Origin: Clostridiales bacterium 1_7_47FAA
GTDB taxonomy: Bacteria > Bacillota > Clostridia > Lachnospirales > Lachnospiraceae
Reading direction: 5' to 3'
Assembly: GCA_000155435.1 (NCBI GenBank)
Contig: DS990261.1
Location: forward strand, 398,243-462,242
Length of the DNA: 64,000 bases
A model generated the notes under the pieces. The model had not been told where the DNA came from. It did no database searches and worked only from the letters and a program-made list of their open reading frames with translations. Shown here one piece after another: positions 8,828 through 58,597 of the stretch. The translations under genes were made by a program, and so were the position numbers. Each line of letters begins with the position of its first letter. Position 1 is the first letter of the stretch.

Positions 8828-10060
8828 TCACTTCTCATCACAAACCTGGAAAATATAGAACTTCAGATAATAACTCTCATCCGCCGCCCAAAGAATCGGA
8901 TGGTCGCTGGCCTGGGTCCGGTATTCCACCTGACGCAGCCGTTTATGGACATTTCCCGCGGCTTCCCGGATGGTCTTTGTGAACAGCTCCGGGTCCATGA
9001 AATGGGAACAGGAGCAGGTGGCCAGGTAGCCGCCGTCCTTTACCAGCTTCATGCCGCGAAGGTTGATTTCACGGTATCCCTTTACTGCGTTCTTGATGGA
9101 ATTCCTGGACTTTGTAAATGCAGGGGGATCCAGGATTACCACATCAAATTTCTGTCCCTCCTGTTCCAGTCTTGGCAGCAGGTCGAACACATCCGCGCAT
9201 TCAAAATGCACCCTGTCACCAATCCCGCTGAGCTGTGCGTTCTCACTGGCCTGATCCACGGCCAGCTGGGAAGCGTCCACTCCGAGCACATCCTTAGAAC
9301 CTGCCAGTCCAGCGTTCAGTGCAAAGGAACCCGTGTGGGTGAAGCAGTCCAGTACCTTGTCCGGCAGGATGTGCCTGCACAGGTTCTGCACAGCCAGGCG
9401 GTTATACTTCTGGTCCAGGAAGAACCCTGTCTTCTGGCCGTCCTCCACATCCACCATGTAGCGGACGCCATTTTCCACAATCTCCACCTTGGTGTCAAAT
9501 GGTTCACCGATAAATCCTTTGTACCGCTCCATGCCTTCCTGGAGGCGTACCTTGGCATCGCTTCTCTCATATACGCCGCGGATGGTTATGCCGTCCTCGG
9601 ACAGCACTTTTTTGAGCATTTCCACAATTACGGGTTTCAGCCGGTCAATACCCAGTGCCAGTGATTCCACAACCAGCACATCCGAGAATTTGTCAATGAC
9701 AATGCCGGGAAGGAAGTCGGCTTCGCCAAATATGATCCGGCAGCTGGATGTGTCCACGGTGGCCTTCCTGTATTCCCACGCATTCCTCACCCGCATTTCA
9801 AGAAAGGCGTCGTCTATGACCGCGCCCTTTTTTCTGGACAGCATGCGCACCGTCAGCTTGGAGTTGGTATTAATGAAACCCTGTCCAAGGAAGAAACCGT
9901 CAAAGTCTTCCACGGATACAAGTTCCCCATTCTGGAAATCCCCTGTAATGGTATCAATTTCATTGTCGTAAATCCATGCCCCGCCAGCCTTTAAGGTGCG
10001 TCCCTGGCCTTTTTTTATGCGAACCGTGGCTGTTATTGTATATAGATTTTTAGATTCCAT
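8828..10060 (-). CDS. rlmI: Class I rRNA (cytosine-C5)-methyltransferase, RlmI-like
   Basis: 410 residues: an N-terminal PUA-like domain (A-T-V-R-I-K-K-G-Q-G-R...G-A-W-I-Y), a central domain, and a Rossmann SAM methyltransferase with V-L-D-C-F-T-H-T-G-S-F-A (motif I, about 240), D-V-V-I-L-D-P-P-A-F (motif IV) and the C-S-C-S-H-F catalytic cysteine block, as in the RlmI/RlmK-like family that makes 5-methylcytosine in 23S rRNA. Full length for the family. CAGGAG precedes the ATG at 10060. The gene stands alone, with over 200 bases on each side. The target position is inferred from E. coli RlmI. Confidence 0.85.
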   Translation of the reverse strand: MESKNLYTITATVRIKKGQGRTLKAGGAWIYDNEIDTITGDFQNGELVSVEDFDGFFLGQGFINTNSKLTVRMLSRKKGAVIDDAFLEMRVRNAWEYRKATVDTSSCRIIFGEADFLPGIVIDKFSDVLVVESLALGIDRLKPVIVEMLKKVLSEDGITIRGVYERSDAKVRLQEGMERYKGFIGEPFDTKVEIVENGVRYMVDVEDGQKTGFFLDQKYNRLAVQNLCRHILPDKVLDCFTHTGSFALNAGLAGSKDVLGVDASQLAVDQASENAQLSGIGDRVHFECADVFDLLPRLEQEGQKFDVVILDPPAFTKSRNSIKNAVKGYREINLRGMKLVKDGGYLATCSCSHFMDPELFTKTIREAAGNVHKRLRQVEYRTQASDHPILWAADESYYLKFYIFQVCDEK

Positions 10061-44454: not shown

Positions 44455-44574
44455 GTTGTGCGTGCCATGGCCGCCCTCCAACGGCAGAACAGTGGATGGA
44501 TGACCTGGGCGGTAATAATTGACGGCATAAGATAAGGAATGCTATACTGGGAAGGAAAGAGGGAGGGGTTGGAA

Positions 44575-47358
44575 ATGTCTGTTATCGATAGGATAAAAAT
44601 CATCATAGAATCAAGAAAAACTAATTTACGGATAGGTTACGCCATATCACAAAATACTTTGGTTGAGAACGAAGACCAACTCTGCCGGTTATTATGCCGC
44701 ATATTTGACGAAGAACAAAAAGAAATTGATAAAGAGCATCAGAAACCGTTTGTGACAGATGACTATGAAAAAGGTATCATGTCCTTTGCCATAGATTTGG
44801 ACCAGGCATTATTCCGGAATCAGGGGGAAATAGCGTCTGCTAAAACATACAGAACGCTTTATACCAGAAGGCACATGGCCTATGCCTTTTTTCACAATCT
44901 GGATAACTTAGAAGACGGAGAAACAGTGTATATGCAAAACGTCCCAGAGCTGGTTCATACTGCCTTTCCGGCTTTGATAAAGTTTTATCGGAATTTTATA
45001 GGGAAGTTTGCTGATAATGAAGAGGCAATCCGGTTAATGTGCAGGTTTTACCCCAAAGGAAACATACCCAAGCTTTCCGGGGACAGGACGGCAGAGGCGC
45101 TTTTTACGCATATCCGGCATGCGGGTTCTTTGAAGGACCGTGGATATGCTTATCATGGGATTGAGATGATTAAGAAATACATCCGCAATGTTCCAGTGGC
45201 GGTTCTGGATAATGTCCTGAAACAGTATCGTATGTATGGAATTATTAATGATACGGTTTACCGCCATCAGATTCATGCGATTATAACAACGTCTTCGTTA
45301 TCCGATGCTAGACAGAAAGAGTATAAATTCTGGTATCTGGACTCCCTGATTCTTGTAGATATCCTGAATAAAACCTTATATAAGAAGCTGCAGTCGGAAA
45401 CGGAAGACGTGGAAAGGGCATTTCTTGGGGATATAAACCTGGATACGGATTCTCTGGAGGTCTTTGAAAATCCACGGGGATATTGGGGGAATGGCGGGAT
45501 TGGAAACCGGTCATTTTATCTGAATGATATTTTGGAGTATACCATCTCTTTATATAAAGGTAATGTGACTGTATTAAATAAGAACGCTCATGTCAAGGAA
45601 GATTTTCCTTTTGACATTGGAGACTGGCGGTTGGATGGCTACTACGGACGGCAGGAGGAACAGAAACTTTACGGAGTTGTTCATGGCAGTTCGGGGGAGA
45701 AAATCAATTATAGGCAGATGATGTTTTCGCTGCTTTACCTAAACCGATATCACGGGATGGAAGAACAGCAGATTGATTTTGACCATCGGTATCATTACGA
45801 TATCCGGAGAAAAAAATTACAGTTAAGCCAGGAGAAGGGGAGACGGATCCATCATTTTTATGGAAAGGCCGTGTCCTCCCTTTCCTGCATTGTGGGAAAG
45901 AACGGAAGTGGCAAATCAAGCACCGTGGATTTCCTGAGGGGAACATTCCTAAGGCTGTTAAAGCTGATGGAGGAAACCGATATCATATTGGAGGATGGCT
46001 TCATTCAGAAAGATGCGGTCCGGGATTATCATATCTTAGAGGAGGATACGGAGTTCCTGGTGGTGTTCCGCCTGGATGATGACGCATATTATGTGACAAA
46101 TATAGACGGACTTAGGGTGGATCAGGCCATACCTTTAAAACCTTTTAATAGGGGAATCATCAGAAGCTTCAATGAAATCAGCAAGCTGTTCTATTTCTCC
46201 GGTTTGTTGAAGAATGATTTAGAACCTTTTGCGGACACGGCGCAAAGAGGGGATGGGAAGAACGGCGGCAAGCAGGAACAGGCAGTGATGTTGGATGACT
46301 TTAAGCAGTATGATTACTCTGAAATGGAAAGCTTTACGGAGAAAATCACGTGCTGGAAGGAAGGGATGGCAGGGGATGAGGATTATATCAATAAGGAGTT
46401 ATGTTACCAGTTTACCTTTCTGAAATGCATGGGACAGGATAGGGTGAACCGTCTGCTGGATTTAAAGGCAGATAAGGTATTCCATGTGAGGAGGGTGATG
46501 TCAGAAGATAAAAATGAGGCAGAAGAACAGTTTACCCTGGGTCAGATTGAAAATAACCATGAAAAGGTCAAAAGCCTGCTGGAAAAGTTTGTACATTATC
46601 CGGATGCAAAGATAGAATATTTCTCATCCGGGGAGTATGCAAAATTTGCATTTCTGGCAAGGCTGTTCTGGATGCTTGAAGGCCGTCAGTATGAGAAAAC
46701 GTTTTATGAGGAATTGGTGGGTAAGAATATCTTTGGCAGTGAGGAAACGCTGCTGCCGGGGGAGACGGCTATGATTTTTATTGACGAAGGGGAGGTTTAC
46801 TATCACCCGGAGTGGCAGAGATGTTATATTGATACGCTTTTAAACATGATAAATGAAAAATTAAACCAGGAGCGGGTACAGATTGTGATTACAACCAACT
46901 CTCCTTTTATCCTGTCAGATGTATTAAGGGAAGACGTGGTTTATCTTTCAGGGGAAGAGGAGACAGCCGCGGAAATGCGGGAAAAGGAAATCACATTTGG
47001 ACAGAATATCCACCGTCTGCTTCGCAGGAATTTCTTTATGGAAGCTACGATTGGGGAATATGCGAAGACAATGATCCAGGAAATGATAGGCGTTCTGCAG
47101 GGCGGGAGGAAGCGTAAGGCGGCAAGGATGGAAGATATCCGCACATTTTTGCACCAGTACTATTCCGAACTAGAGGACGGGGAGGAATGTGAGGCCATAC
47201 AGGGATTGATTGACCAGATAGGAGAACCTGTTTATAGGGATAATCTGGAAAAACTTGTAAGCATATATAAGGCAGAAGATAAGGAATGGCAGATAAATGA
47301 GATGCAAAAGGAAATCCGGCAGTTGGAGGAAAGGATACAAAGGCTGAAGCATGATTAA
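44575..47358 (+). CDS. Large ABC-type AAA ATPase of a Septu-like defence pair
   Basis: 927 residues. The first about 430 residues are a charged, largely helical region without recognised family. Then comes an ABC/RecF-type ATPase: Walker A G-K-N-G-S-G-K-S-S (441-449), signature-like F-S-S-G-E-Y-A-K-F (683-690), Walker B M-I-F-I-D-E-G-E (733-740) and switch T-T-N-S-P-F (773-778), where Asn replaces the usual His. A terminal coiled coil (about 890-927) follows. ATG 44575 follows GGGAGGGG. The HNH gene overlaps by eight bases. ATPase + HNH is the PtuA-PtuB plan of Septu, but PtuA is usually far shorter, so this is a distant or large variant. AT-richer than its neighbours; probably acquired. Confidence 0.72.
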   Translation: MSVIDRIKIIIESRKTNLRIGYAISQNTLVENEDQLCRLLCRIFDEEQKEIDKEHQKPFVTDDYEKGIMSFAIDLDQALFRNQGEIASAKTYRTLYTRRHMAYAFFHNLDNLEDGETVYMQNVPELVHTAFPALIKFYRNFIGKFADNEEAIRLMCRFYPKGNIPKLSGDRTAEALFTHIRHAGSLKDRGYAYHGIEMIKKYIRNVPVAVLDNVLKQYRMYGIINDTVYRHQIHAIITTSSLSDARQKEYKFWYLDSLILVDILNKTLYKKLQSETEDVERAFLGDINLDTDSLEVFENPRGYWGNGGIGNRSFYLNDILEYTISLYKGNVTVLNKNAHVKEDFPFDIGDWRLDGYYGRQEEQKLYGVVHGSSGEKINYRQMMFSLLYLNRYHGMEEQQIDFDHRYHYDIRRKKLQLSQEKGRRIHHFYGKAVSSLSCIVGKNGSGKSSTVDFLRGTFLRLLKLMEETDIILEDGFIQKDAVRDYHILEEDTEFLVVFRLDDDAYYVTNIDGLRVDQAIPLKPFNRGIIRSFNEISKLFYFSGLLKNDLEPFADTAQRGDGKNGGKQEQAVMLDDFKQYDYSEMESFTEKITCWKEGMAGDEDYINKELCYQFTFLKCMGQDRVNRLLDLKADKVFHVRRVMSEDKNEAEEQFTLGQIENNHEKVKSLLEKFVHYPDAKIEYFSSGEYAKFAFLARLFWMLEGRQYEKTFYEELVGKNIFGSEETLLPGETAMIFIDEGEVYYHPEWQRCYIDTLLNMINEKLNQERVQIVITTNSPFILSDVLREDVVYLSGEEETAAEMREKEITFGQNIHRLLRRNFFMEATIGEYAKTMIQEMIGVLQGGRKRKAARMEDIRTFLHQYYSELEDGEECEAIQGLIDQIGEPVYRDNLEKLVSIYKAEDKEWQINEMQKEIRQLEERIQRLKHD

Positions 47359-48322
47359 GATTCATACATATTCAAATGGATTCCAGGAGGAATATTTTGA
47401 GGCAGTACGAAAGAACGTCGGCATAGGGGACATGAAAGCAGTTGCAGCCAGCAGCAAAAAGTTCCTGCCTCTGGATTTTTTCACTGCAAAGGATGCAGAG
47501 GGCCGGTTCAGGGAATTGATTTTGGCCCCTTATAAAAAGCTGAAGGAGGCTGAGCAGTATATAAGGAAAAATAAAATGGCGGAAATGGAGGCAGAATGCC
47601 GTGACAATCATTCACCCCATAAGCCGCAATTAACGGATTTATATTATAGGTTATACAAAGCCTTTCGTGATGTGGCGAAGTCTGAGAAGGACGGGAAGTC
47701 GCTGCGGGTCAGGCTGGTAGGGAACACCGGATTGACGGTATGTCCGTATTGCAACAGGGATTATATTAATGCAAGGGCACGGAATGCATCCGGGGCGCAG
47801 CTGGACCATTTTTTCAGCCGCTCAAAGTATCCGGTTTTTGCAGTAAGCCTTTACAATCTGGTTCCGGCCTGCGGGAACTGCAACCGTATTAAAAGCGGAG
47901 GCAGCAAAGCGTTCGCCTCTCCCTTTGATGAGGAAATTAATTTTAACCAGGAAGTGAGATTTTCATACGAATCCCAAGATGACGGGTACATCGTCAATAT
48001 TGAGACAGACAATGAACGCATGAAAAATAACCTTGAGCATATGAAAATCCGGGAGGCTTATGCAATTCATGAGCGCGATATTAAGATGATAATAGAGAAA
48101 CAAATGGAATATTCCAAAAGCCAGATAGAAGAATTTCAGAAAATGTTTAAGGAGTTAAATGATTCGGGAAAAATCTATATAACAGAAGACGACGTGAAAA
48201 GGGCTGTTTTTGGACCGCCAATCAGCGAGGAAGATATGAAAACCCGTTCATTGGCTAAAATGTACCATGATATTTATGATAAATTGGGGATATACCCTGT
48301 TACAGCCCGGTCAGACAGCTGA
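47351..48322 (+). CDS. HNH endonuclease (PtuB-like effector)
   Basis: 323 residues. A zinc-supported HNH core: C-P-Y-C (131-134), L-D-H-F-F-S-R-S-K-Y-P (Asp152-His153), Y-N-L-V-P-A-C (Asn169) and C-G-N-C-N-R-I-K-S (Cys174/177). This C-x2-C ... DH ... N ... C-x2-C-N-x2-K order is that of PtuB/McrA-like DNA nucleases. Helical segments of about 120 residues flank it. Its ATG lies inside the ATPase stop (ATGATTAA), so the two are co-translated and probably form a complex in which ATP state licenses cutting. All expected catalytic residues are present. Confidence 0.78.
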   Translation: MIKIHTYSNGFQEEYFEAVRKNVGIGDMKAVAASSKKFLPLDFFTAKDAEGRFRELILAPYKKLKEAEQYIRKNKMAEMEAECRDNHSPHKPQLTDLYYRLYKAFRDVAKSEKDGKSLRVRLVGNTGLTVCPYCNRDYINARARNASGAQLDHFFSRSKYPVFAVSLYNLVPACGNCNRIKSGGSKAFASPFDEEINFNQEVRFSYESQDDGYIVNIETDNERMKNNLEHMKIREAYAIHERDIKMIIEKQMEYSKSQIEEFQKMFKELNDSGKIYITEDDVKRAVFGPPISEEDMKTRSLAKMYHDIYDKLGIYPVTARSDS

Positions 48323-48422: not shown

Positions 48423-48436
48423 TTGTACAAAATTAA
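48423..48436. promoter_or_regulatory. Shared 14-bp motif, copy 1 (upstream of transaldolase gene)
   Basis: TTGTACAAAATTAA, with palindromic core TTGTACAA, about 50 bases upstream of the sulfoglycolysis promoter. An identical copy precedes the symporter gene at 51062. Candidate binding site of the cluster's ROK regulator. Confidence 0.4.
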
Positions 48437-48486
48437 TTAAATGAATTAAACAATATGACGAAACGTAAAATTTTCCATAAATCCCA

Positions 48487-48515
48487 TTGACATTTAGTTA
48501 TTTTGACTATATTAT
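48487..48515 (+). promoter_or_regulatory. Promoter of the sulfoglycolysis operon
   Basis: TTGACA (48487-48492), 17-base spacer, TATTAT (48510-48515). Between it and the first gene is the perfect palindrome TTGATTAATCAA (48585-48596), a second operator candidate. The rest of the 318-base intergenic region is AT-rich with no gene. Confidence 0.6.
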
Positions 48516-48640
48516 TGAGTTACAAACTTGTGGTAAGCGGATAAGTACACAAACTCTCATAGGCCCAATCCCTTGCTGCAATAATTGATTAATCAAATTA
48601 ACAAATTAAACAAGAGTCAAAACAAGGAGGATGTAAGATT

Positions 48641-49327
48641 ATGAAGTATTTCTTAGACAGTGCAAAGCTTGATGAGATCCAGTTAGCCTACAACACATTT
48701 GGTATTGACGGTGTTACCACCAACCCAAGGCATATCATGCTCAGCGGGAAACCGTTCCTCACAGCCATCCAGGGCATTGCGGACTGGATTAAGTCCGAAG
48801 GACTGGACGGATATGAGCGTTTCCCGGTCTCCGTTGAGATCAATCCCCATCTGGACGAGGCGGAGGCAATGCTGGCAGAGGCCAGGAAGATTGCATCCAT
48901 CAGCCCTAACTTCGTAATCAAGATCCCGGCAACCGAGGCAGGCGTCACGGCAGCCAGGAAGCTGGAGGCAGAGGGAATCAGGACCAATGTGACCCTGGTA
49001 TTTTCACCGGCCCAGGCCATCCTCCCGGCAAAGAACCATTCACTGTTCGTATCCCCGTTCATTGGCTGGAAGGAAGCCAACGGAGAGGACTGTAAGACAT
49101 ATATCCAGAATATTGTGGACATTTACAAGAACTACGGATTCTACGGAAAGACCCAGATCATCTGCGCCGCAATCCGGACACCAAAGCAGATTGTGGACTG
49201 CGCCGTGGCCGGGGCGGATATCATAACAACCGGACTGGCCGTGTATCAGGATACCATGAAGCATGCCTATACCAACCAGGGAATCGGCACCTTCATTGAT
49301 GCATGGGATCATACGATTACAGAATAA
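48641..49327 (+). CDS. Sulfofructose transaldolase (TalC/Fsa-like)
   Basis: 228 residues, small transaldolase barrel. The Schiff-base lysine is Lys94 in V-I-K-I-P-A-T-E-A-G. The N-terminal T-T-N-P-S of fructose-6-phosphate aldolases reads T-T-N-P-R-H here (26-31): a basic residue where a ligand group binds. Context (sulfoquinovosidase, sulfonate exporter, YihU-like reductase) points to the sulfoglycolytic transaldolase (SftT type), which moves the three-carbon ketone piece of sulfofructose to glyceraldehyde-3-phosphate, giving fructose-6-phosphate and sulfolactaldehyde. AAGGAGG precedes the ATG. If context is ignored, the fallback is a generic transaldolase. Confidence 0.78.
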   Translation: MKYFLDSAKLDEIQLAYNTFGIDGVTTNPRHIMLSGKPFLTAIQGIADWIKSEGLDGYERFPVSVEINPHLDEAEAMLAEARKIASISPNFVIKIPATEAGVTAARKLEAEGIRTNVTLVFSPAQAILPAKNHSLFVSPFIGWKEANGEDCKTYIQNIVDIYKNYGFYGKTQIICAAIRTPKQIVDCAVAGADIITTGLAVYQDTMKHAYTNQGIGTFIDAWDHTITE

Positions 49328-49343
49328 AAGGAGCAGGACAGAT

Positions 49344-50198
49344 ATGAAGATAGGGTTTATCGGACTGGGAATCATGGGTGAGTCCATGAGTGAGAATATT
49401 GTAAAGAAACACAATGACACGGTGTACGTATTTGACTTTGTAAAGGAAAAGACGGATCTGCTGGCATCCAAGGGAGCCGTGGCCTGCAGTGATTCCGTGG
49501 AACTGGCAAGGAATTCGGACGTAATCATTTCCATGGTGCCAAAGTCAGAGCATTCAAGGTCTGTGTACATGGGAATCCTGGATGTGCTGGATTCCACCAA
49601 GACCTGTATCGACATGAGCACCATCGACCCAAGCGTATCCGTGGAGATTGCCGGGATGGTGAAAAAGACTGGCGCCGGATTCATCGACGCACCGGTTGTC
49701 AAATCAAAACCCGCCGCCGTCGCGGGTAAGCTGGGAATCTATGTGGGCGGAGACAAGGAGACATACGAGGCCATGCGTCCCATCCTCCTTTACATGGGGG
49801 AGAATGTAAAGCATATGGGAGAGAACGGCAAAGGACTTGTGATGAAAATCTGCCACAACGCCCTGGTTTCCCAGATTCAGAACGGTGTCAATGAAACCAT
49901 CAGCCTGGCGGGAAGGAACGGGATTTCCGTCATGGATTACGCGGAGGCCATTTCCTACGGCGGAGGCCAGAATTTCTATCTGGATTCCAAGAAGGGTGTG
50001 ATAGAAAAAGAGGACTATACCACTGCATTTTCCGTGGAAAACATGGCCAAGGACGTGAATATCTGCATGAAGCTGGCAGAGGAATCCGGACTTTCCATGC
50101 CGGGTGAACAGGCGGCTGGCCAGGTTTATGAAAAGGCCCTGGAACAGGGATATGGGAAAGAGGATTTTTGTGCTACTATAAAGGTAGTGAGAGGCTGA
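49344..50198 (+). CDS. Probable 3-sulfolactaldehyde reductase (3-HIBDH family)
   Basis: 284 residues. Beta-hydroxyacid dehydrogenase: N-terminal NAD fold G-F-I-G-L-G-I-M-G-E-S-M, substrate motif D-A-P-V-V-K-S-K-P-A, and catalytic Lys in G-L-V-M-K-I-C-H-N-A-L. Same family as E. coli YihU, which reduces sulfolactaldehyde to dihydroxypropanesulfonate with NADH. The family glycine-serine loop D-x-P-V-S-G is altered to D-A-P-V-V-K-S-K, hinting at a changed anion pocket. ATG 49344 is 17 bases after the transaldolase stop, with AAGGAG. Reduction would rebalance NADH in an anaerobe; oxidation to sulfolactate is less likely for this family. Confidence 0.7.
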   Translation: MKIGFIGLGIMGESMSENIVKKHNDTVYVFDFVKEKTDLLASKGAVACSDSVELARNSDVIISMVPKSEHSRSVYMGILDVLDSTKTCIDMSTIDPSVSVEIAGMVKKTGAGFIDAPVVKSKPAAVAGKLGIYVGGDKETYEAMRPILLYMGENVKHMGENGKGLVMKICHNALVSQIQNGVNETISLAGRNGISVMDYAEAISYGGGQNFYLDSKKGVIEKEDYTTAFSVENMAKDVNICMKLAEESGLSMPGEQAAGQVYEKALEQGYGKEDFCATIKVVRG

Positions 50199-50225
50199 TC
50201 CGGAGAGAGGAAGGAAAGACGGAAC

Positions 50226-50903
50226 ATGGATAATATAATGATGGAACGCCTGAACCAGGTCAACGGCATTCCGGTCCGCCCTGTGGACTCCAAAGAGTTT
50301 GAGACATATGGCCGGATTATAACGGGCTATGATTTTTCTGACCTGATATCCTATATGGAGACAAAGTCAGACATCCCGGAGAACGGCAATATCTATCTGC
50401 CATCGGTTCCCGGGATGGAGGAGGCGCCTGTGACGGCCCGTCTGCGGGACGGTTTCTACGGCGGCATGGACATCCAGGTGGGATATTGCAACGGCAGGAA
50501 CACTACATACAACGGATTTGAGTATCACAAGGGAAGCGAGATCAACATTGCAGTGACGGATTTCATGCTGGTGCTGGGGCATACATGGGAGATAAAGGAC
50601 AACACATACAGGGTGGAGGACGCCAGCGTGTTTTTTGTGGAAAAGGGGACAGCCATTGAGATGTACCAGACCACGCTTCACTTATCCCCCTGCCGTGTGA
50701 CGGACCAGGGATTTAAGGATATCGTGGTTCTTCCAAAGGGAACCAACACGCCATTAAAGAACCGGACGGCTCCGGCCACGGACGAGGAAAAGCTGCTTCT
50801 GCAATGTAATAAATGGGTCATTGCCCATCCTGACCGGGAACCCTTAATCCGGCAGGGCGCATTCCCGGGGCTTCTGGGAGAGAACAGGGAGCTTAGGTAT
50901 TAA
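50226..50903 (+). CDS. DUF4867-family protein of the sulfoglycolysis cluster
   Basis: 225 residues, soluble, beta-rich and cupin-like (Y-N-G-F-E-Y-H-K-G-S-E-I-N-I-A; D-F-M-L-V-L-G-H; V-F-F-V-E-K-G-T-A-I-E-M-Y-Q-T-T-L-H-L-S-P), with His/Glu positions that could bind a metal. It resembles the DUF4867 family, which I recall as a companion of transaldolase-type sulfoglycolysis genes. Role unproven: mutarotase, lactone/isomerase step or regulator of flux. It sits between the reductase and the symporter, 27 bases after the reductase. Confidence 0.72.
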   Translation: MDNIMMERLNQVNGIPVRPVDSKEFETYGRIITGYDFSDLISYMETKSDIPENGNIYLPSVPGMEEAPVTARLRDGFYGGMDIQVGYCNGRNTTYNGFEYHKGSEINIAVTDFMLVLGHTWEIKDNTYRVEDASVFFVEKGTAIEMYQTTLHLSPCRVTDQGFKDIVVLPKGTNTPLKNRTAPATDEEKLLLQCNKWVIAHPDREPLIRQGAFPGLLGENRELRY

Positions 50904-51061
50904 ATCAGGCTTTAGGATTATATTGAAACAATAAAACACCGCCCAGGTCCAACTTGTATCCTGGCAGATGGGGCTGGACCCGGGCGGCGTACAGTTGAGG
51001 CACGTGTACCATCAACGCATATCAATGGTATCACAACGGCCCGGCTGAGTATACAGGTAAA

Positions 51062-51075
51062 TTGTACAAAATTAA
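51062..51075. promoter_or_regulatory. Shared 14-bp motif, copy 2 (upstream of symporter gene)
   Basis: TTGTACAAAATTAA, identical to 48423-48436, 17 bases before the symporter ATG. The 190-base gap also holds a GC-rich imperfect hairpin (about 50940-50990), so the symporter may start a second transcription unit under the same regulator. Confidence 0.4.
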
Positions 51076-51092
51076 AAAACGGGGGAATATTT

Positions 51093-52871
51093 ATGGAACA
51101 TTTAATGTTTACATTAGTGACGTTCATTCTTTTTACGGCCCTGGTGGGTGTGATATCTGCAAAGATAGTAAAGGGCGGGGATGACCAGAAGACGGCAAAG
51201 GGATATTTCCTTGCGGGAAGCGGTCTGGGCGGTACCTTCATCGCCGGTTCCATGCTGCTGACCAATCTTTCGGCCGAGAACCTGGTAGGGCTTTCGGGCC
51301 AGTCTTACGCAGCCAACATGTCGGGAATGGCATGGGAGGCAACGGCTGTGATTGCAACCATTGTCATGGCCTTTGTATTCCTTCCGCTGTATCTGAGGAA
51401 AGGCTACACCACGCTTCCTGAGTTCATGGAAGAGCGTTACGGCATCTTTGTGCGCAGGATGGTTTCCTTGTTTTTCCTGGTAGGATACCTGCTCATAGGC
51501 ATTCCTGTCTGTCTGTACGCGGGGGCCATCGGTTTTAACCAGATATTTGACCTGTCGAGTATTTTCGGCATCAGTTCCCAGACAGCGCTTACCATCCTGA
51601 TTGTATTGGTTGGCATTATCGGCGCGCTGTATGCTGTACTCGGAGGTCTGAAAGCAGTTGCCGTATCCGATACGATCAACGGCGTCCTGCTGGTAGGCGG
51701 TTCCCTTTTAGTGGTAATATTCGGATTCATCGCAGTAGGCAATGCCAAGGCGGACGGCGGTTTTGCTGCGGGCGTAAACTATGTGCTGGATAACAATTAT
51801 ATGCAGTTAAATGCCATTGGCGGCAAGAATGACCCGGTGCCCTTTGCATGTATTTTCACCGGCATGGTCCTGGCAAACCTGTTTTACTGGGGCACCAACC
51901 AGGTGCTGATCCAGAGGGCGCTTGGCGCAAAGAACCTGAAGGAAGGGCAGAAGGGCGTATTGATTTCCGGTTTCCTGAAAATGATGGTTCCCATGCTTCT
52001 GGTGCTTCCGGGCGTCATCGCTGCCGCGCTGGTTGGGACCGGTCTGGAGAGCAAGGATTTCGCATATCCCACATTGGTTGCCAGATCCCTTCCGTGGCCC
52101 GTGGTAGGATTGTTCTGCGCCGCGCTGTTCGGTTCCGTCATCTCCACTTATAACTCCTTCCTGAATGCGGCTTCCACCGTATTCATGGTAGATATTTATA
52201 AACCGATTTTCAACCCCGGATTGTCGGATGAGAAAACAGTGGTTTATGCAAAAAGGATTGGCTGGGGCTTTGCAGCATTCGCAATCTGCTTTACCCCGTT
52301 CCTTCAGGTCCTGAGCACTGGCCTTTATGACTTCGGGCGCAGCTTTACCGGATTTTACAACATCCCCATCATTACCCTGGTCTTAATCGGTATGTTCAGT
52401 AAAAAGGGTTCATCCCTGGGCGCGGTTGCGGCATCCATATGGCATGTATTCTTTTATTCAGGCTATAAGTTCTGGTTCAAATACATTGACATGCCTTTTA
52501 CCAATGCGGTCCTGGGTATCAACTATATGCATATTTACGCGATTTCGTTCGTCATCATGCTGGTCATCATTTTCGTATGTGCCAAGATACAGCCCAATGA
52601 CAAGATATTTGACAACAGCACTCAGAAGAATGCCAGCTATGACATGACGCCGTGGGTACATAAAAATGCAGTTGCCATCTGGCTGGTTTCCTTCCTGGTA
52701 TATGAGTATTTCCTGTTCTCACCCGCCGGCTTTGCCACACCGGACAGGAACATGGGCCTGATCGGCGGCGTGACCCTGGCTCTTGCGGCTGAGACCGTAA
52801 TCCTCTATCTGATGGAGAAAAAAAAACGGGTAAGCGCAAACGCGTGCCAGACAGTGAATGCGGAAAGATAG
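51093..52871 (+). CDS. Sodium:solute symporter (SSS/SLC5), candidate sulfoquinovose importer
   Basis: 592 residues, about 14 membrane helices. SSS landmarks: F-L-A-G-S-G-L-G-G-T-F-I-A-G-S-M-L-L-T-N-L-S-A-E-N (helix 1 sodium/sugar region, about 33-57), R-K-G-Y-T-T-L-P-E-F-M-E-E-R-Y-G, and Y-A-V-L-G-G-L-K-A-V-A-V-S-D (the SSS signature). It resembles SglT-type sugar symporters. Lying between DUF4867 and the sulfoquinovosidase, it is the only importer in the cluster and so the likely entry route for sulfoquinovose or its glycerol glycoside. E. coli uses a different family (YihO) for this. Confidence 0.82.
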   Translation: MEHLMFTLVTFILFTALVGVISAKIVKGGDDQKTAKGYFLAGSGLGGTFIAGSMLLTNLSAENLVGLSGQSYAANMSGMAWEATAVIATIVMAFVFLPLYLRKGYTTLPEFMEERYGIFVRRMVSLFFLVGYLLIGIPVCLYAGAIGFNQIFDLSSIFGISSQTALTILIVLVGIIGALYAVLGGLKAVAVSDTINGVLLVGGSLLVVIFGFIAVGNAKADGGFAAGVNYVLDNNYMQLNAIGGKNDPVPFACIFTGMVLANLFYWGTNQVLIQRALGAKNLKEGQKGVLISGFLKMMVPMLLVLPGVIAAALVGTGLESKDFAYPTLVARSLPWPVVGLFCAALFGSVISTYNSFLNAASTVFMVDIYKPIFNPGLSDEKTVVYAKRIGWGFAAFAICFTPFLQVLSTGLYDFGRSFTGFYNIPIITLVLIGMFSKKGSSLGAVAASIWHVFFYSGYKFWFKYIDMPFTNAVLGINYMHIYAISFVIMLVIIFVCAKIQPNDKIFDNSTQKNASYDMTPWVHKNAVAIWLVSFLVYEYFLFSPAGFATPDRNMGLIGGVTLALAAETVILYLMEKKKRVSANACQTVNAER

Positions 52872-52991
52872 GAAAATGATTTAAATCTCCCGCAAAGTGG
52901 GACGCACAGCTGGCGGAAGACAATTTACAGACACGCCCTGGCACCGCCGGAGGGCGCTGGATGCTATCAATTACAGGCAAGGAGGTTTCAT

Positions 52992-55013
52992 ATGGAGTTT
53001 ATTCGTAAGGAAATGGACTGGGAGTTAAATGCAAACGGCCGCAGCATACTGGAATGCAAAGGCAGCAAGCCCATGATTTACGTTGGATACGGGGAAGAAT
53101 CCGTGGATATGTACAGGGGAAATTTTAAGATTGAGGACTATGTGGTGGAACGGCGTCCTTTACATGTGACCGGGATTACAGAAGGGCCGGAGGGCATTTC
53201 CATGGACATGGAAGGGCAGCTTACGCTTACGGTCAGGGTTGAGGGAGAGTGCGCGCTCCTCTCCTTTACCCAGGTGGATCCGCGCATCAACCGGTTCTGG
53301 TTCCGGGTGGAGGCGGATGAGGAAGAGTGCTGTTACGGCTGCGGCGAGCAGATGTCGTATTTTAACCTGAGGGGAAGGCATTTCCCTTTGTGGACCTCTG
53401 AACCGGGGGTGGGAAGGGATAAGACCACCTATGTGACCTGGCGCTCCGATGTGGAGAATAAGGCGGGAGGGGATTATTATAACACCAACTATCCGGAACC
53501 CACCTATGTCTCTTCCAGGCATTACTATCTCCATGTGGATTCCACTGCCTATGCTGATTTTGATTTCAGGAACAGGGAGTTCCATGAGCTGCAGATATGG
53601 GAAGTGCCTGCATCCATCCGCATAGAGGCAGCCCCCACCTTCGTGGAACTGCTGGAAAAGCTGACAGCATTCCTCGGGCGCCAGCCCGAACTTCCTGAAT
53701 GGGTATACAACGGCCTGATCATCGGCGTACAGGGAGGCAATGAACGCTCCTTCGGACTTCTTGACAGGACCCTGGAAAAAGGAATCAAGGTGTCCGGCCT
53801 GTGGTGCCAGGACTGGTGCGGCAAACGTGTCACGTCCTTCGGAAAACGTCTTCAGTGGGACTGGCAGTACCATAAGGAAATGTACCCGAACCTGCCAAAG
53901 CGCATTGAGGAGCTTCACGCCAGGGGCATCCGGTTCCTTGGCTATATCAATCCCTATCTGGTCAATGACGGCGTCCTTTATGAAGAGGGGAAGGCAAAGG
54001 GCTACTTTGCCACCAAGGGGGATGGAAGCGATTACCTGGTGGATTTCGGCGAGTTTTACTGCGGCGTGGTGGACCTGACCAACCCGGACGCATATGAGTG
54101 GTTTAAGGACGAAGTGATTAAGAAGCACAGCCTGGACATCGGCATTGACGGCTGGATGGCTGATTTTGGGGAGTATCTCCCAACGGATGACTTAAGGCTT
54201 TACAGCGGTAAATCCCCCATGATGGAACACAACCGCTGGCCGGCCCTCTGGGCAAAATGCAACTACGATGCGGTAAAGGAAGAGGGCAGGCTGGGAGAGG
54301 TTGTATACTTCATGCGCGCCGGCGGAACCGGCAGCCAGAAGTACTGTACCCTTTTATGGGCAGGGGACCAGTCCGTGGACTTCACCATCCATGACGGCCT
54401 GGCAACGGTAATCTGCGCGGCCCTAAGCGCGGGCATGACCGGATGCGGACTGAGCCACAGTGATATCGGCGGCTATACCTCCCTGTTTGACAATACCAGG
54501 ACAAAGGAACTGTTCTTAAGATGGTCCGAGATGGCCATGTTCACGCCGGTGATGCGCACCCATGAGGGGAACCGGCCGGACACGAATTTCCAGTACTATG
54601 AGGATGAGGACTGTATGGAGCAGCTGGCAAGACTGGTGGATATCTACACCATGCTGTCCCCGTACATGAAGGTCCTGGTTAAGGAAAATGCCGAAAAGGG
54701 CATCCCGGTGCAGCGACCGCTGTTCCTTCACTATGAGGAGGATGGGAAGGCATATGGCATCCAGTATGAATACCTGCTGGGACGTGACCTTCTGGTGGCC
54801 CCGGTCTACCTTGAGGCCAGGGAAGACTGGGATGTGTATCTTCCGGAAGGCGAATGGGTCCACTTGTGGACAGGGGATGTGTATCAGGGCGGTGATGTGA
54901 ACGTGGAAGCGCCTCTGGGCTACACCCCGGCATTTTACCTGAAGGATTCATCGTACGCGCCTTTGTTTGAGGAAATCCGCAGGAAATATGGGACAGCGGC
55001 GTCCAGGGATTAA
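52992..55013 (+). CDS. yihQ: Sulfoquinovosidase (GH31, YihQ-like)
   Basis: 673 residues, near the length of E. coli YihQ and alignable along most of it by eye. Nucleophile Asp391 in W-M-A-D-F-G-E-Y-L-P; acid/base Asp459 in L-W-A-G-D-Q-S-V-D. The sulfonate-recognising residues known from YihQ (Arg301, Trp304, Tyr508) are present as Arg286 and Trp289 in G-K-R-L-Q-W and Tyr495 in S-D-I-G-G-Y. It hydrolyses sulfoquinovosyl glycerol and sulfolipid-derived glycosides to sulfoquinovose. No signal peptide, so it acts in the cytoplasm after uptake. AAGGAGG precedes the ATG. The residue match makes an ordinary alpha-glucosidase unlikely. Confidence 0.88.
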   Translation: MEFIRKEMDWELNANGRSILECKGSKPMIYVGYGEESVDMYRGNFKIEDYVVERRPLHVTGITEGPEGISMDMEGQLTLTVRVEGECALLSFTQVDPRINRFWFRVEADEEECCYGCGEQMSYFNLRGRHFPLWTSEPGVGRDKTTYVTWRSDVENKAGGDYYNTNYPEPTYVSSRHYYLHVDSTAYADFDFRNREFHELQIWEVPASIRIEAAPTFVELLEKLTAFLGRQPELPEWVYNGLIIGVQGGNERSFGLLDRTLEKGIKVSGLWCQDWCGKRVTSFGKRLQWDWQYHKEMYPNLPKRIEELHARGIRFLGYINPYLVNDGVLYEEGKAKGYFATKGDGSDYLVDFGEFYCGVVDLTNPDAYEWFKDEVIKKHSLDIGIDGWMADFGEYLPTDDLRLYSGKSPMMEHNRWPALWAKCNYDAVKEEGRLGEVVYFMRAGGTGSQKYCTLLWAGDQSVDFTIHDGLATVICAALSAGMTGCGLSHSDIGGYTSLFDNTRTKELFLRWSEMAMFTPVMRTHEGNRPDTNFQYYEDEDCMEQLARLVDIYTMLSPYMKVLVKENAEKGIPVQRPLFLHYEEDGKAYGIQYEYLLGRDLLVAPVYLEAREDWDVYLPEGEWVHLWTGDVYQGGDVNVEAPLGYTPAFYLKDSSYAPLFEEIRRKYGTAASRD

Positions 55014-55016
55014 GGT

Positions 55017-55877
55017 GTGGATATGAGATACGCAGCATTTTTCCTTGTCATATTATTGTCCAACATCATCCAGGGAATCACAGGCTTTGCAGGGACCATC
55101 CTTGCAATGCCTCCCAGCCTGATGCTGGTAGGGTATAATACAGCCAAGCCGGTGCTTAACGTGCTGGGCCTGCTGTCCGGGATATACGTGTTTGCCGGGC
55201 ACAGGAAGCATGTGTGCTGGGGCGAGCTTAAGAAAATCGTGGCCGTGATGGCAGTTGGGATTGTGGGAGGCATTTTCCTGAAAGGCTTTTTTGCGGGAAG
55301 GGAGAGGATGCTCTACGCTTTGCTGGGACTGTTTGTTGTCTGTCTGTCCGTTCAGGGGCTGTGGAAGCTTCGGATGGAAAGGCAGGAGGAGGCAAAGGGC
55401 CAGGCTGGAGGGCCGGATGCGGCAGGCGGGCAAGGAACGGAAGGGCTGCGGCCAGGTGGGGCTAAAGCCGTGGAGCCGCAGGCAGCAGGAACATTCAGGG
55501 AATCATCGGCCCAGGGATCTAAAACCACCCCGGCCCTGTACCTTCTTCTTGGCCTGGCCGGGATTGTCCATGGTATTTTCGTATCGGGCGGCCCCCTGTT
55601 AATCGGCTACCTGACCAGACGGATCCAGGATAAGGTCAGCTTCAGGGCCACCATTTCCACGGTGTGGGTGGTGCTCAACACCATCATCATGCTGGATGAT
55701 ATCCGTTCAGGGTTATGGAACCCGGAGCTGGTAAAGATACAGGTGGTTTCCATTCCCTTCCTGTTGGCTGGCATGGCGGTTGGAAGCCATCTTTATGCGA
55801 AGATGAGCCAGCGCCTGTTCATGCTGATTACATATGTACTTTTGTTTCTATCGGGAATTTCCCTGTTAATAAAGTAA
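55017..55877 (+). CDS. TauE/SafE-family sulfonate exporter
   Basis: 286 residues in two four-helix halves with the TauE motifs Q-G-I-T-G-F-A-G-T (about 21-29) and G-I-V-H-G-I-F-V-S-G-G-P-L-L-I-G-Y (about 182-198). A hydrophilic Gly/Ala-rich linker of about 55 residues (120-175) splits the halves and is longer than usual. It starts three bases after the sulfoquinovosidase stop. In sulfoglycolysis clusters this family exports the C3 sulfonate end product (dihydroxypropanesulfonate or sulfolactate); sulfite is the alternative. Confidence 0.82.
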   Translation: MDMRYAAFFLVILLSNIIQGITGFAGTILAMPPSLMLVGYNTAKPVLNVLGLLSGIYVFAGHRKHVCWGELKKIVAVMAVGIVGGIFLKGFFAGRERMLYALLGLFVVCLSVQGLWKLRMERQEEAKGQAGGPDAAGGQGTEGLRPGGAKAVEPQAAGTFRESSAQGSKTTPALYLLLGLAGIVHGIFVSGGPLLIGYLTRRIQDKVSFRATISTVWVVLNTIIMLDDIRSGLWNPELVKIQVVSIPFLLAGMAVGSHLYAKMSQRLFMLITYVLLFLSGISLLIK

Positions 55878-55892
55878 AGGAGATATAAAAAC

Positions 55893-57230
55893 ATGAAATA
55901 CCAAGTTGCATACATACCGATTGGAGTACCTACCTTTCATCTGGAAAGCGCCCAGGTGGAATTTGATAAATCCGTGGGCCTGATTTCCTCCCTCACAGAG
56001 GACGGCGTTTACCCGGATAAAATGCTTCTGTCCATGGATGACCTGTGCGCCTTTCTGGATACAATCAATCCTGGTCTTATCATCCTGCAGAACATCACCT
56101 TTGCCAATGCGGCCTTTGCAAGCGAGGTGCTTAAACGCTTCACCTGCCCTGTGCTGCTGTGGACCCTGAGGGAGCCGGTGATTGACGGCGGGCGCCTGAG
56201 GCTGAATTCCCTGACCGGGGCATTCTCAGCGGGCAATGCCCTGCGTGCGTTCAGGGACGGCGAATTTGAATATGTCTTCGGTTCGCCGGAAGAAGATGAG
56301 GTGGCTGGCGCTGTTAAGGCAGCCATTGGCGCAGCCAGGATAAAGCACCAGATGCGGGAGCTGAAAATGGCTTCCATCGGCCATACGCCCCAGGGCTTTG
56401 GGTTCGGAAGGGCGCTGGATTCCGAGCTTATGCGCGCCTTTGGGGTGACCCTGGAATCCATTGAAGCCAGGGAACTGATTGACAAGGCAAAGTCATTTAC
56501 GGATGAGGAATGCGCTCCCTGCCTGGAGGAGGCAAAAGCCATGATGGTGGGGCTGGAGGGTACACCGGAGAAGAACGTGAAGGATTTTGCCAGACTATAT
56601 AAGGCTTACAAGGATTATGTGGCTGGGAACCATATCGGGGCCTTATCTTCCAGGTGCTGGCCGGACTTCTTTACATCCTTTGGGACCCCGGTATGTTCCG
56701 TGCTGGCCATGCTCAATGCGTCGGGGATTGCCGCAAGCTGCGAATCCGACGTATACGGGGCATTGTCCATGTACATCGGGACACAGCTGACCGGCAATGC
56801 CGCATTTTTCGGGGACCCTGTGTCCATGGATGAAAAGGAAGGGACCATTACCTTCTGGCACTGCGGAATGGCGGCCTGCACCCTGGCAAGAAAGGATACC
56901 GGGGCACAGGTGGGCGTACACCCCAACCGCAAGATTGGCCCGGTCATGGATTTTGGATGCCGGGCATGTGAGAAAGTGACCATTTTCCGGGTGGGCCGTA
57001 AGGCGGACGGCAGCTTCCGGTTCTTCATCGCCTCCGGCGAGGCCCTGGACCGTCCAAAACAGTTCTGCGGGACTTCCGTGGTGGTGAAGACAGAACATGA
57101 TGCCAAGGATATCATAGTGAAGAGTGTTAAGAGTGGCTGGGAACCGCATTTTGTGGTGATTTACGGGGATGCGGCCCAGGAACTTACCATGCTGGCGCAT
57201 ATGATGGGGATGGAGGCCTGTGTATATTAG
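55893..57230 (+). CDS. L-fucose-isomerase-like protein, candidate sulfoquinovose isomerase
   Basis: 445 residues, soluble. Layout follows the FucI/AraA superfamily: two Rossmann-like N-terminal domains (Y-I-P-I-G-V-P-T-F; L-I-I-L-Q-N-I-T-F; V-L-L-W-T-L-R-E-P-V) and a C-terminal metal/substrate domain (C-W-P-D-F; A-A-S-C-E-S-D-V-Y-G-A; F-W-H-C-G-M-A-A; H-P-N-R-K-I-G-P-V-M-D-F-G). Glu in C-E-S-D and His in W-H-C-G are plausible metal ligands. In this context it is the best candidate for converting sulfoquinovose to sulfofructose, since no YihS homologue is present. AAGGAG precedes the ATG, 15 bases after tauE. Confidence 0.75.
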   Translation: MKYQVAYIPIGVPTFHLESAQVEFDKSVGLISSLTEDGVYPDKMLLSMDDLCAFLDTINPGLIILQNITFANAAFASEVLKRFTCPVLLWTLREPVIDGGRLRLNSLTGAFSAGNALRAFRDGEFEYVFGSPEEDEVAGAVKAAIGAARIKHQMRELKMASIGHTPQGFGFGRALDSELMRAFGVTLESIEARELIDKAKSFTDEECAPCLEEAKAMMVGLEGTPEKNVKDFARLYKAYKDYVAGNHIGALSSRCWPDFFTSFGTPVCSVLAMLNASGIAASCESDVYGALSMYIGTQLTGNAAFFGDPVSMDEKEGTITFWHCGMAACTLARKDTGAQVGVHPNRKIGPVMDFGCRACEKVTIFRVGRKADGSFRFFIASGEALDRPKQFCGTSVVVKTEHDAKDIIVKSVKSGWEPHFVVIYGDAAQELTMLAHMMGMEACVY

Positions 57231-57302
57231 GGCGTGTTTGAAAATTGCTTTCCGCCGGCTGTGCTTTGCCTGGTATTGCTTTGCCCGGTATCCAAGTTTT
57301 CC

Positions 57303-57331
57303 TTGATTTTAAATGTGTTTACGCCTATACT
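57303..57331 (+). promoter_or_regulatory. Promoter of the ROK regulator gene
   Basis: TTGATT (57303-57308), 17-base spacer and TATACT (57326-57331). It lies between the isomerase and regulator genes, so the regulator can be transcribed separately. Confidence 0.6.
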
Positions 57332-57391
57332 GATATGAGATGTGATTTACAATATCCCGGTGGACCGGGAAATGAGATGGAGGGAGAAGTT

Positions 57392-58597
57392 ATGGGCTAT
57401 ACGGGTATTAACCTTGAAAATGTAAAAGTGAGTAACCGCAGCGCCATATTGAAACTTCTCAATGACCATGGCGCCATGTCCAGAAAGGACATAGCCCTGG
57501 AACTGGGCCTGACCCCGGCCACGGTTACCCTGATCTGCACCCAGCTGCTCTCTGCCGGAATCCTTGTGGAAAAGGGGGAGATGGAAGAGGAGAAGCGGGC
57601 AGGCAGGAAAAAGGTATCCATTGATATTAATTATCAGTATAAATACGTGCTTTCCGTGAGCATAGAAGCCCCTGAAACCTGTATATCCATCAGCGACCTG
57701 AAGGGCAGGCTGATTGCAGGCAGGAAGCTGAAGACAGACGGCGCCCTGGAGCCGCAGGTATTCTTAAAGCAGGTGGCGGATGAGGGCAAGTCCCTTATGT
57801 GGGAACAGGGAATATCAAAGGAATCGGTTCTCGGCGCGGGCATATCCCTTCCCGGCCCCGTGAAACGGGATACAGGAGTCAGCCTTCATGCTTACCGTAT
57901 ATGGAATGAGGCGGTGCCGGTTGGGGAGTATATGAAGATGTACCTGGACCTTCCCGTGGTGGTGGAAAATAACGTAAAGGCATTTGCCGAGGGGGAACTG
58001 ATATACGGTACAGGCAAAAATCAGGAAAACCTTCTGTTCATCAAATGGGGGCCGGGTGTCGGTTCTGCCATCATCATACAGAATAAGATATATGACAGCC
58101 AGAATTCCAAGACCGCGGAAATCGGCCACTATATCGTGGAGCCGGGCGGGCTTCCCTGCCGCTGCGGCAGACGGGGCTGCCTGGAGACCCATGTGGCCAC
58201 CCATGCCATGGCCGAGCGTGTGAGGCGGGCCTGCACAAAGGAGTCCATGCCCGGACTCTATGCATTCGTGGACGGGGATGTGGAAAAGATTGAAGTCAGG
58301 AACATGGAACAGTGGATAGAGATAGAAGACCCGGGACTTCAGAAAATCATTGATGATATTGTGGAGCGGCTGGCCAGGACCGTGGTGAACACCATCACCC
58401 TGCTGGCCCCGGATAAGGTCATCATCTATGGGTTCATGTTTGAAATGGACCATATCCAGAAACGGTTCCTGGACTTCTGTACGTATTATGATTCCCTGTA
58501 TGACGGGGATTATATCCTGAAATCCGGGCTTAGTGACCGCATTGGATACATCGGGCCTCTGGCAATTGTTGTGAATGAAATGTTCCTGGGGATGTAA
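57392..58597 (+). CDS. ROK-family transcriptional regulator of sulfoglycolysis
   Basis: 401 residues. Winged helix-turn-helix at the N-terminus (N-R-S-A-I-L-K-L-L-N-D-H-G-A-M-S-R-K-D-I-A-L-E-L-G-L-T-P-A-T-V) followed by a ROK sugar-binding domain with the zinc motif C-R-C-G-R-R-G-C-L-E (about 258-267) and V-V-E-N-N-V-K-A-F-A-E-G-E. NagC/XylR type: sugar binding should release it from operators. ATG 57392 is six bases past GGAGGG; earlier in-frame starts precede the promoter. It closes the cluster, and the repeated TTGTACAAAATTAA motif is its candidate target. Confidence 0.85.
   Translation: MGYTGINLENVKVSNRSAILKLLNDHGAMSRKDIALELGLTPATVTLICTQLLSAGILVEKGEMEEEKRAGRKKVSIDINYQYKYVLSVSIEAPETCISISDLKGRLIAGRKLKTDGALEPQVFLKQVADEGKSLMWEQGISKESVLGAGISLPGPVKRDTGVSLHAYRIWNEAVPVGEYMKMYLDLPVVVENNVKAFAEGELIYGTGKNQENLLFIKWGPGVGSAIIIQNKIYDSQNSKTAEIGHYIVEPGGLPCRCGRRGCLETHVATHAMAERVRRACTKESMPGLYAFVDGDVEKIEVRNMEQWIEIEDPGLQKIIDDIVERLARTVVNTITLLAPDKVIIYGFMFEMDHIQKRFLDFCTYYDSLYDGDYILKSGLSDRIGYIGPLAIVVNEMFLGM

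Follow-up and report, generated by a model that had tools for sequence, protein, structure and literature searches.

Transaldolase-type sulfoglycolysis (sulfo-TAL, also called sulfo-SFT) has been described in B. megaterium, B. aryabhattai, E. rectale, C. symbiosum and E. gilvus (PMC12890257, PMC11968277, PMC11489063, PMC9594981), and fermentation of sulfoquinovose (SQ) has been reported for C. symbiosum, E. rectale and E. clostridioformis (PMC11489063, PMC12890257, PMC11968277, PMC12330013). A pure culture of E. clostridioformis YL32 is reported to convert SQ to dihydroxypropanesulfonate (DHPS) (PMC12330013). According to the same source, metagenome-assembled genomes of E. aldenensis encode the pathway, one of them with hpfGHD, and an amplicon sequence variant of E. 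citroniae rose at 10 mM SQ in human faecal microcosms. Metatranscriptomes indicate that C. aldenense and C. clostridioforme, among others, express the pathway (PMC8397734). In this study, we analysed a window of 64,000 nucleotides from Clostridiales bacterium 1_7_47FAA (contig DS990261.1, positions 398,243 to 462,242), whose genome shares its genus with [Clostridium] citroniae, a species that has a syntenic locus. Positions 48641..58597 of this window hold a cluster of eight genes that is very probably a complete, inducible sulfo-TAL operon, judging from its gene order, family membership, active-site residues, synteny and operator-like repeats. The pathway type proposed in a preliminary description of this DNA is thus supported, and it is known in print, this genus included (PMC8397734, PMC12330013). 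Because of this, only the symporter and the control sequences are fresh, as far as the literature examined goes and with no literature search aimed at the control sequences, which weighs against the novelty of the cluster; the earlier view that both gene set and symporter deserve description holds for the symporter of the SSS family and is weakened for the rest. The locus is a further example of a known pathway, with a predicted SSS importer and two candidate control features.

As first described, the eight genes are consecutive open frames on the + strand, and each product matches a named Pfam family; the DUF4867 and TauE proteins are without an NCBIfam match. In order, they encode a predicted 6-deoxy-6-sulfofructose transaldolase, SftT/SqvA (48641..49327; Pfam TAL_FSA), a predicted 3-sulfolactaldehyde reductase, SftR/YihU-like (49344..50198), a DUF4867 cupin, SftX/SqvB (50226..50903), an SGLT-like sodium symporter of the SSS family (51093..52871; PF00474), a predicted GH31 sulfoquinovosidase, SftG/YihQ (52992..55013), a TauE/SafE family protein (55017..55877; PF01925; GTG start, in-frame ATG at 55023), a predicted FucI-like sulfoquinovose isomerase, SftI/SqvD (55893..57230; NF048012 and PF02952), and a ROK-family regulator with a winged helix and a ROK domain (57392..58597). 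The family matches bear out the earlier calls for the symporter, the TauE protein and the regulator; import of SQ or SQ-glycerol by the first and export of DHPS by the second are predictions. Intergenic gaps measure 3-27 bases, except for 189 before the symporter, 120 before the glycosidase and 161 before the ROK start, and purine-rich stretches resembling ribosome-binding sites precede most starts. The most likely start of the reductase is 49344 instead of 49263, because AAGGAG lies upstream and several relatives start there; GGAGG upstream of 57392 makes this the probable start of the ROK gene, rather than a TTG at 57245. Since the same gene order recurs in other genomes, a chance grouping is untenable.

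The glycosidase aligns with E. coli YihQ at 53% identity over 662 residues. The preliminary description had based the sulfosugar assignment on Arg286, Trp289 and Tyr495 and had proposed this alignment as a check. The triad is intact, corresponding to YihQ Arg301, Trp304 and Tyr508, and Gln273 and Asp391/Asp459 correspond to YihQ Gln288 and Asp405/Asp472. We take the Arg, Trp and Tyr of YihQ to be sulfonate-binding and the two Asp to be catalytic. The same triad and Asp residues stand in E. rectale SftG, 6pnr, which among solved proteins gives the best match (661 residues, 1229 bits); conserved sulfonate-recognition residues and sulfoquinovosidase activity have been reported for this enzyme (PMC11968277). 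Both comparisons agree with the call of a YihQ-type GH31 glycosidase. As a separate observation, seven transaldolase loci (L074, L079 and L082-L086) carry a different GH31 protein, 41-45% identical, in which Gln replaces the sulfonate-binding Arg (motif FGYQVMWNW) and substrate recognition may differ; two of these loci have a GPH transporter at ≥69% identity.

The best solved match of the transaldolase is BmSF-TAL, 8bc3 (E 7.2e-82), and its Lys94 aligns with BmSF-TAL Lys89, the reported Schiff-base lysine (PMC12890257). The transaldol cleavage proposed earlier would, by sequence, be that of a sulfofructose transaldolase. The DUF4867 protein (PF16161, 257.6 bits) has a solved relative in the B. 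megaterium protein 9gyy (E 7.5e-72), to which Glu99, His101, Glu105 and His152 align; these residues are in line with the 2His-2Glu metal site described for 9GYY (PMC11968277). Opening of the SQ ring has been proposed for DUF4867 (PMC9594981), and mutarotation by SftX was not found in the work reported in PMC11968277. In that same work, the isomerising enzyme is the FucI-like protein and no activity was seen with DUF4867, which is why we assign the step to the predicted isomerase SftI: of the former wording, 'FucI-like and/or DUF4867', the first half is retained and the second is dropped. Our SftI is 67-88% identical to copies in loci that hold the transaldolase core.

Relatives were collected by scanning genome contigs with the glycosidase, a method that finds only copies sharing short peptides with the query. 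Fifty-four loci were obtained, the best being that of [Clostridium] citroniae WAL-17108 (L003; 87%). Its eight-gene order, symporter included, is identical to that of the window, its proteins are 71-94% identical, and the gap before the symporter is conserved; as far as seen, the two differ only by sequence divergence. The loci of C. clostridioforme (L009) and C. symbiosum (L010) share the core gene order, TauE, ROK and the operator-like repeat pair, whereas the symporter is replaced by genes resembling TctC and TctA, which lie between TauE and sftI and were identified by a Pfam run on the L004 copies. The TauE gene occupies the same place in many, though not all, syntenic loci. The sulfo-SFT set of Eubacterium (Agathobacter) rectale (SftT, SftI, SftR, SftG, SftX, SftE) has the core enzymes in common with the window and includes the closest solved sulfoquinovosidase; the window has the SSS symporter and TauE, and the transporter classes of E. 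rectale stand outside this comparison. The Bacillus megaterium/aryabhattai sulfo-TAL systems share the transaldolase, the isomerase and the DUF4867 protein (PMC12890257, PMC11968277, PMC11489063), but there sulfolactaldehyde is reported to be oxidised to sulfolactate (PMC11489063, PMC12890257), and the window has a reductase instead. The transaldolase (E ≤ 1e-60) occurs in 3 of the 17 genomes of the window's genus and in 20 of the 299 genomes of the family sample; hence, the pathway is patchy. The three are the source genome, that of L003 and the C. clostridioforme genome of L009 (G695), the last with TctCBA instead of the symporter that the other two carry. On a side note, L005 (12748-15670), L007, L011, L012, L013 and L042 have glycerol dehydrogenase-like and dihydroxyacetone kinase genes inside their sulfo clusters, which are absent from the window's cluster and may handle free dihydroxyacetone.

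We regard transaldolase-type sulfoglycolysis as the best reading of the cluster because the closest solved relatives of the transaldolase, the glycosidase and the DUF4867 protein are sulfoglycolytic and because C. symbiosum and C. clostridioforme, both reported to ferment SQ, share the core gene order. Several results weigh against it. The transaldolase scores under the NCBIfam cut-offs, and the full-length match of SftI to NF048012 'sulfoquinovose isomerase' reaches 422.9 bits, under the cut-off of 700; sequence comparison gave no solved relative of SftI (best E 0.85). Between the reductase and YihU, identity is 28%; Lys168 and Lys236 stand at YihU Lys171 and Lys240, and Lys120, His171 and Val175 replace YihU Arg123, Asn174 and Ser178. 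The reductase scores 150.5 bits against PRK15461, under a cut-off of 348, and its best solved matches are 3-hydroxyisobutyrate dehydrogenases (YihU itself, 6sm7, follows at E 7.1e-29), so that the substrate is assigned from context. The superfamily and the aligned Lys168 of the YihU-family call are therefore retained, and sulfolactaldehyde is suggested by the gene neighbourhood. The closeness of the reductase to these dehydrogenases, together with the bare family names (alpha-glucosidase, transaldolase, oxidoreductase, fucose isomerase), would suit a plain operon for alpha-glucoside or fucose-type catabolism that has been mistaken for sulfoglycolysis. Given the intact sulfonate triad, the sulfoglycolytic solved matches of three proteins and the presence of TauE, we find this barely credible. 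It is also very unlikely that the same chemistry serves mainly another 6-sulfo sugar such as sulfofucose, with SQ as a secondary substrate: other hexoses are conceivable substrates of an SSS importer and a FucI-like isomerase, and sulfofucose catabolism is reported in a Paracoccus, yet the closest solved glycosidase is a demonstrated sulfoquinovosidase (PMC11968277) and growth on SQ has been reported for species with the same core gene order. A scan of ten proteins, the eight of the cluster and two encoded upstream, found no sulfo-TK transketolase (SqwGH); the rest of the genome was not searched for it.

Under transaldolase-type sulfoglycolysis, the following route can be proposed, in which every substrate, the direction of transport, the cellular site of hydrolysis and the inducer are predictions. 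The symporter would import SQ or its glyceryl glycoside with Na+, and the GH31 sulfoquinovosidase would release SQ, whose ring opening or mutarotation the DUF4867 protein may aid. SftI would convert SQ to sulfofructose. By transferring a three-carbon unit from sulfofructose to glyceraldehyde-3-phosphate, SftT would form fructose-6-phosphate, which would enter glycolysis, and leave sulfolactaldehyde. This the reductase would then reduce with NADH to DHPS, which TauE would carry out of the cell. Finally, the ROK protein would act at the two palindromes on either side of the promoter and keep the operon repressed as long as no sulfosugar or intermediate is sensed.

DHPS is the likely end product, since the cluster contains no HpfG or HpfH and the pyruvate formate-lyase-like proteins of the genome are distant from the HpfG of L005. 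In the source draft genome (107 contigs), we found four such matches, three of them 23-34% identical to L005 HpfG and the fourth weak and partial (27.9 bits). Genes of L005 match HpfG and HpfH above cut-off, and relatives of these (71-79%) lie near the cluster in L013. The published E. aldenensis genome with hpfGHD tells against a uniform outcome; therefore, the end product can differ within the genus.

The symporter is the component that sets this locus apart from the L009 and L010 loci. We compared transporters in 30 loci with a transaldolase above 50% identity, after leaving out 12 locus ids that repeat the window, or a contig or genome stretch listed under another id; L091 was left out in favour of L016 on the same contig, at the cost of one transaldolase locus. 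The symporter is present in 5 loci and TctA in 9, never together; a GPH protein (≥69% to L079) occurs in 2 and an ABC binding protein (≥56% to L028) in 5. Nine loci have none of these transporters at ≥50% identity, and one of the nine, L045, ends soon after the TauE gene. Because E. coli YihO, annotated as a putative SQ transporter, is a GPH protein, the GPH, TctCBA, ABC and SSS transporters may fill the same importer slot. In a tree built from core proteins of the window and of 19 selected loci, the symporter loci fall into two groups; repeated gain of the symporter is not claimed, since the tree that joins them (with L007) was not rejected (approximately unbiased test, p = 0.186). Literature searches for a symporter of this kind in SQ metabolism brought up no paper with sulfoglycolysis in its title, although published figures may already draw the locus.

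Solved relatives of the symporter include vSGLT and hSGLT1. Residues described for galactose in vSGLT are Q69, E88, N260, K294 and Q428 (PMC8037263, PMC4270436). Five residues of the vSGLT site are conserved, namely Glu82, Asn262, Tyr265, Trp266 and Lys296 (vSGLT position 294 is Ala in chain 2xq2 and Lys in 3dh4); Asn63 stands at vSGLT Gln69 and Arg416 at vSGLT Gln428. Arg416 is found in 10 of 10 alignment rows at ≥79% identity (7 distinct genomes). At 36-46% identity there are nine rows, of which one genome supplies four; Q, N or D stands at this position in eight of the nine, and Arg in L093. The residue is thus not exclusive to sulfo loci, as L093 lies outside them. E. coli YidK, a relative within the SSS family, has Lys408 at this position, hinting at an anionic substrate. 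Its gene (L108 3402-5117) adjoins yidJ, a putative sulfatase/phosphatase gene. We infer that Arg416 may meet the sulfonate.

We tentatively propose, as a possibility on which we would not insist, that the symporter is a dedicated importer of SQ or SQ-glycerol that reads the sulfonate via Arg416 and is exchangeable with TctCBA, GPH or ABC transporters, and that an RNA hairpin not described before, lying between the DUF4867 and symporter genes, separately controls the uptake and hydrolysis half of the operon. That the SSS gene serves another substrate, with SQ entering through an unlinked transporter, strikes us as rather unlikely. This alternative draws on L093, which, apart from the source genome, provided the only symporter match (E ≤ 1e-110) in a phylum sample of 398 genomes: the protein is 46-47% identical and has the same Arg, and in its genome neither a YihQ-type gene (at E ≤ 1e-100) nor an adjoining sulfo gene was recognised. 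Against it stands the family sample, where the symporter occurs at ≥80% identity in 4 of 299 genomes, our own included (the next best match is 43%), and lies directly beside a GH31 gene in all four, three of them with the transaldolase close by. The mutual exclusion of symporter and TctA argues in the same direction, as does the fourth genome, G066, in which the symporter is on a contig other than that of the transaldolase, directly before a 75% identical glycosidase and with no other sulfo gene seen in 13.7 kb. This symporter and sulfoquinovosidase pair spans L073 8622-12434, and on the other contig (L074), a GPH transporter and the different GH31 belong to a transaldolase cluster.

With regard to control, two operator-like palindromes of the form TTRATTAA-N5-TTAAYYAA precede sftT, at 48433..48453 and, shortly before the gene, at 48585..48605, each matching 15 of 16 specified positions. 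Between them, a promoter-like TTGACA-17-TATTAT lies at 48487..48515 (+ strand, 11/12), and L003 has the same hexamers and spacing. The ROK gene may have its own promoter at 57303-57331 (+ strand). As a class, promoter-like sites are not enriched (15 found against 11.5 expected, standard deviation 4.1). The operator survey covered 15 upstream regions, namely the window and 14 loci with a transaldolase at ≥77%, three loci at 56-61% falling outside it. Two or more sites at ≥13/16 positions were present in 12 regions and one site in the other 3, and shuffles of each region gave two or more in 0-6 of 200; this count is not independent, because the consensus was drawn from the same related sequences. 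Across the whole genome, the operator at ≤1 mismatch occurs at three places, two of them at this locus. At ≤2 mismatches there are 23 matches against 32 for a reversed control pattern, so only those at ≤1 mismatch are meaningful and a wider regulon is not claimed. The third match (L106 5963; contig C104 709462-709482) lies in the gap before an ABC-ATPase-like frame, named by eye, and no sulfo gene was recognised around it. On these sites, the ROK protein is likely to act as a repressor at both palindromes.

The second candidate control feature is the conserved, apparently non-coding gap before the symporter (50904..51092, + strand). This gap of 189 nucleotides is 80% identical to L003, with 126 of 142 columns identical in its last part; fourfold sites of three genes reach 52%, 56% and 64%, all below the gap. 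Identity is 68% in the operator-bearing 260 bases ahead of sftT and 22% and 55% in two other gaps. The gap is not a repeat, being single copy in the genome. Neither does it appear to code for a peptide: no start-to-stop frame common to window and L003 was seen beyond very short ones, and one frame open in both has no start, with about half of its changes synonymous (by eye). Folding suggests a hairpin at about 50939-50987 (+ strand) with the apical loop CUGGCA. Cropped to the hairpin, the z-score is -2.8 in the window and -2.2 in L003, and the whole gap is unremarkable (-1.4). Rfam gave no match in the gap and two sub-threshold matches elsewhere (58372-58429); in four relatives' loci, it gave one sub-threshold match, away from the gap.

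In five relatives, the gap after the DUF4867 gene contains the exact 17-mer AAATACTGGACATATTT inside complementary stems (L005 8025-8222, L007 about 9825-9883, L013 8064-8209, L042 4975-5216 and L044 7912-8134). The stems differ in sequence, with z-scores of -3.7 to -6.3 on stretches cropped to the hairpins, which inflates such values; longer stretches gave -6.0 (L005), -7.0 (L013), -5.0 (L042) and -1.2 (L044). When L013 and L044 are folded to minimum energy, the 17-mer forms no small stem of its own. L007 has the hairpin and lacks the symporter. The 17-mer has no match in the window and is absent from G066 at ≤1 mismatch. Its exact form occurs in 4 of 397 family genomes, twice in sulfo loci and twice elsewhere, there without an enclosing stem. 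As a general element it was discarded, since at ≤1 mismatch it occurs at 39 places against about 40 for the control.

Just upstream of the operon, at 44539-48322, an AAA ATPase gene (939 amino acids) is followed by an HNH-like gene (323 amino acids; HNH named by eye), with a GC content of about 0.43-0.46. The best PADLOC candidates are PDC-M62A/B and, more weakly, PtuA/PtuB, and the pair looks like a two-gene phage-defence system.

SQ is plentiful in green vegetables, and the DHPS formed from it by gut bacteria is reported to feed hydrogen-sulfide producers (PMC8397734). In the literature examined, the SQ importers of sulfo-TAL bacteria are named as likely at most (SftA, SqvU), and on regulation there is a candidate repressor in Faecalicatena, while CsqR is mentioned. 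With the hairpin and the paired operators, work on regulation gains concrete targets, and the presence in this genus of a complete cluster whose sodium symporter is distinct bears on which bacteria compete for SQ, and how.

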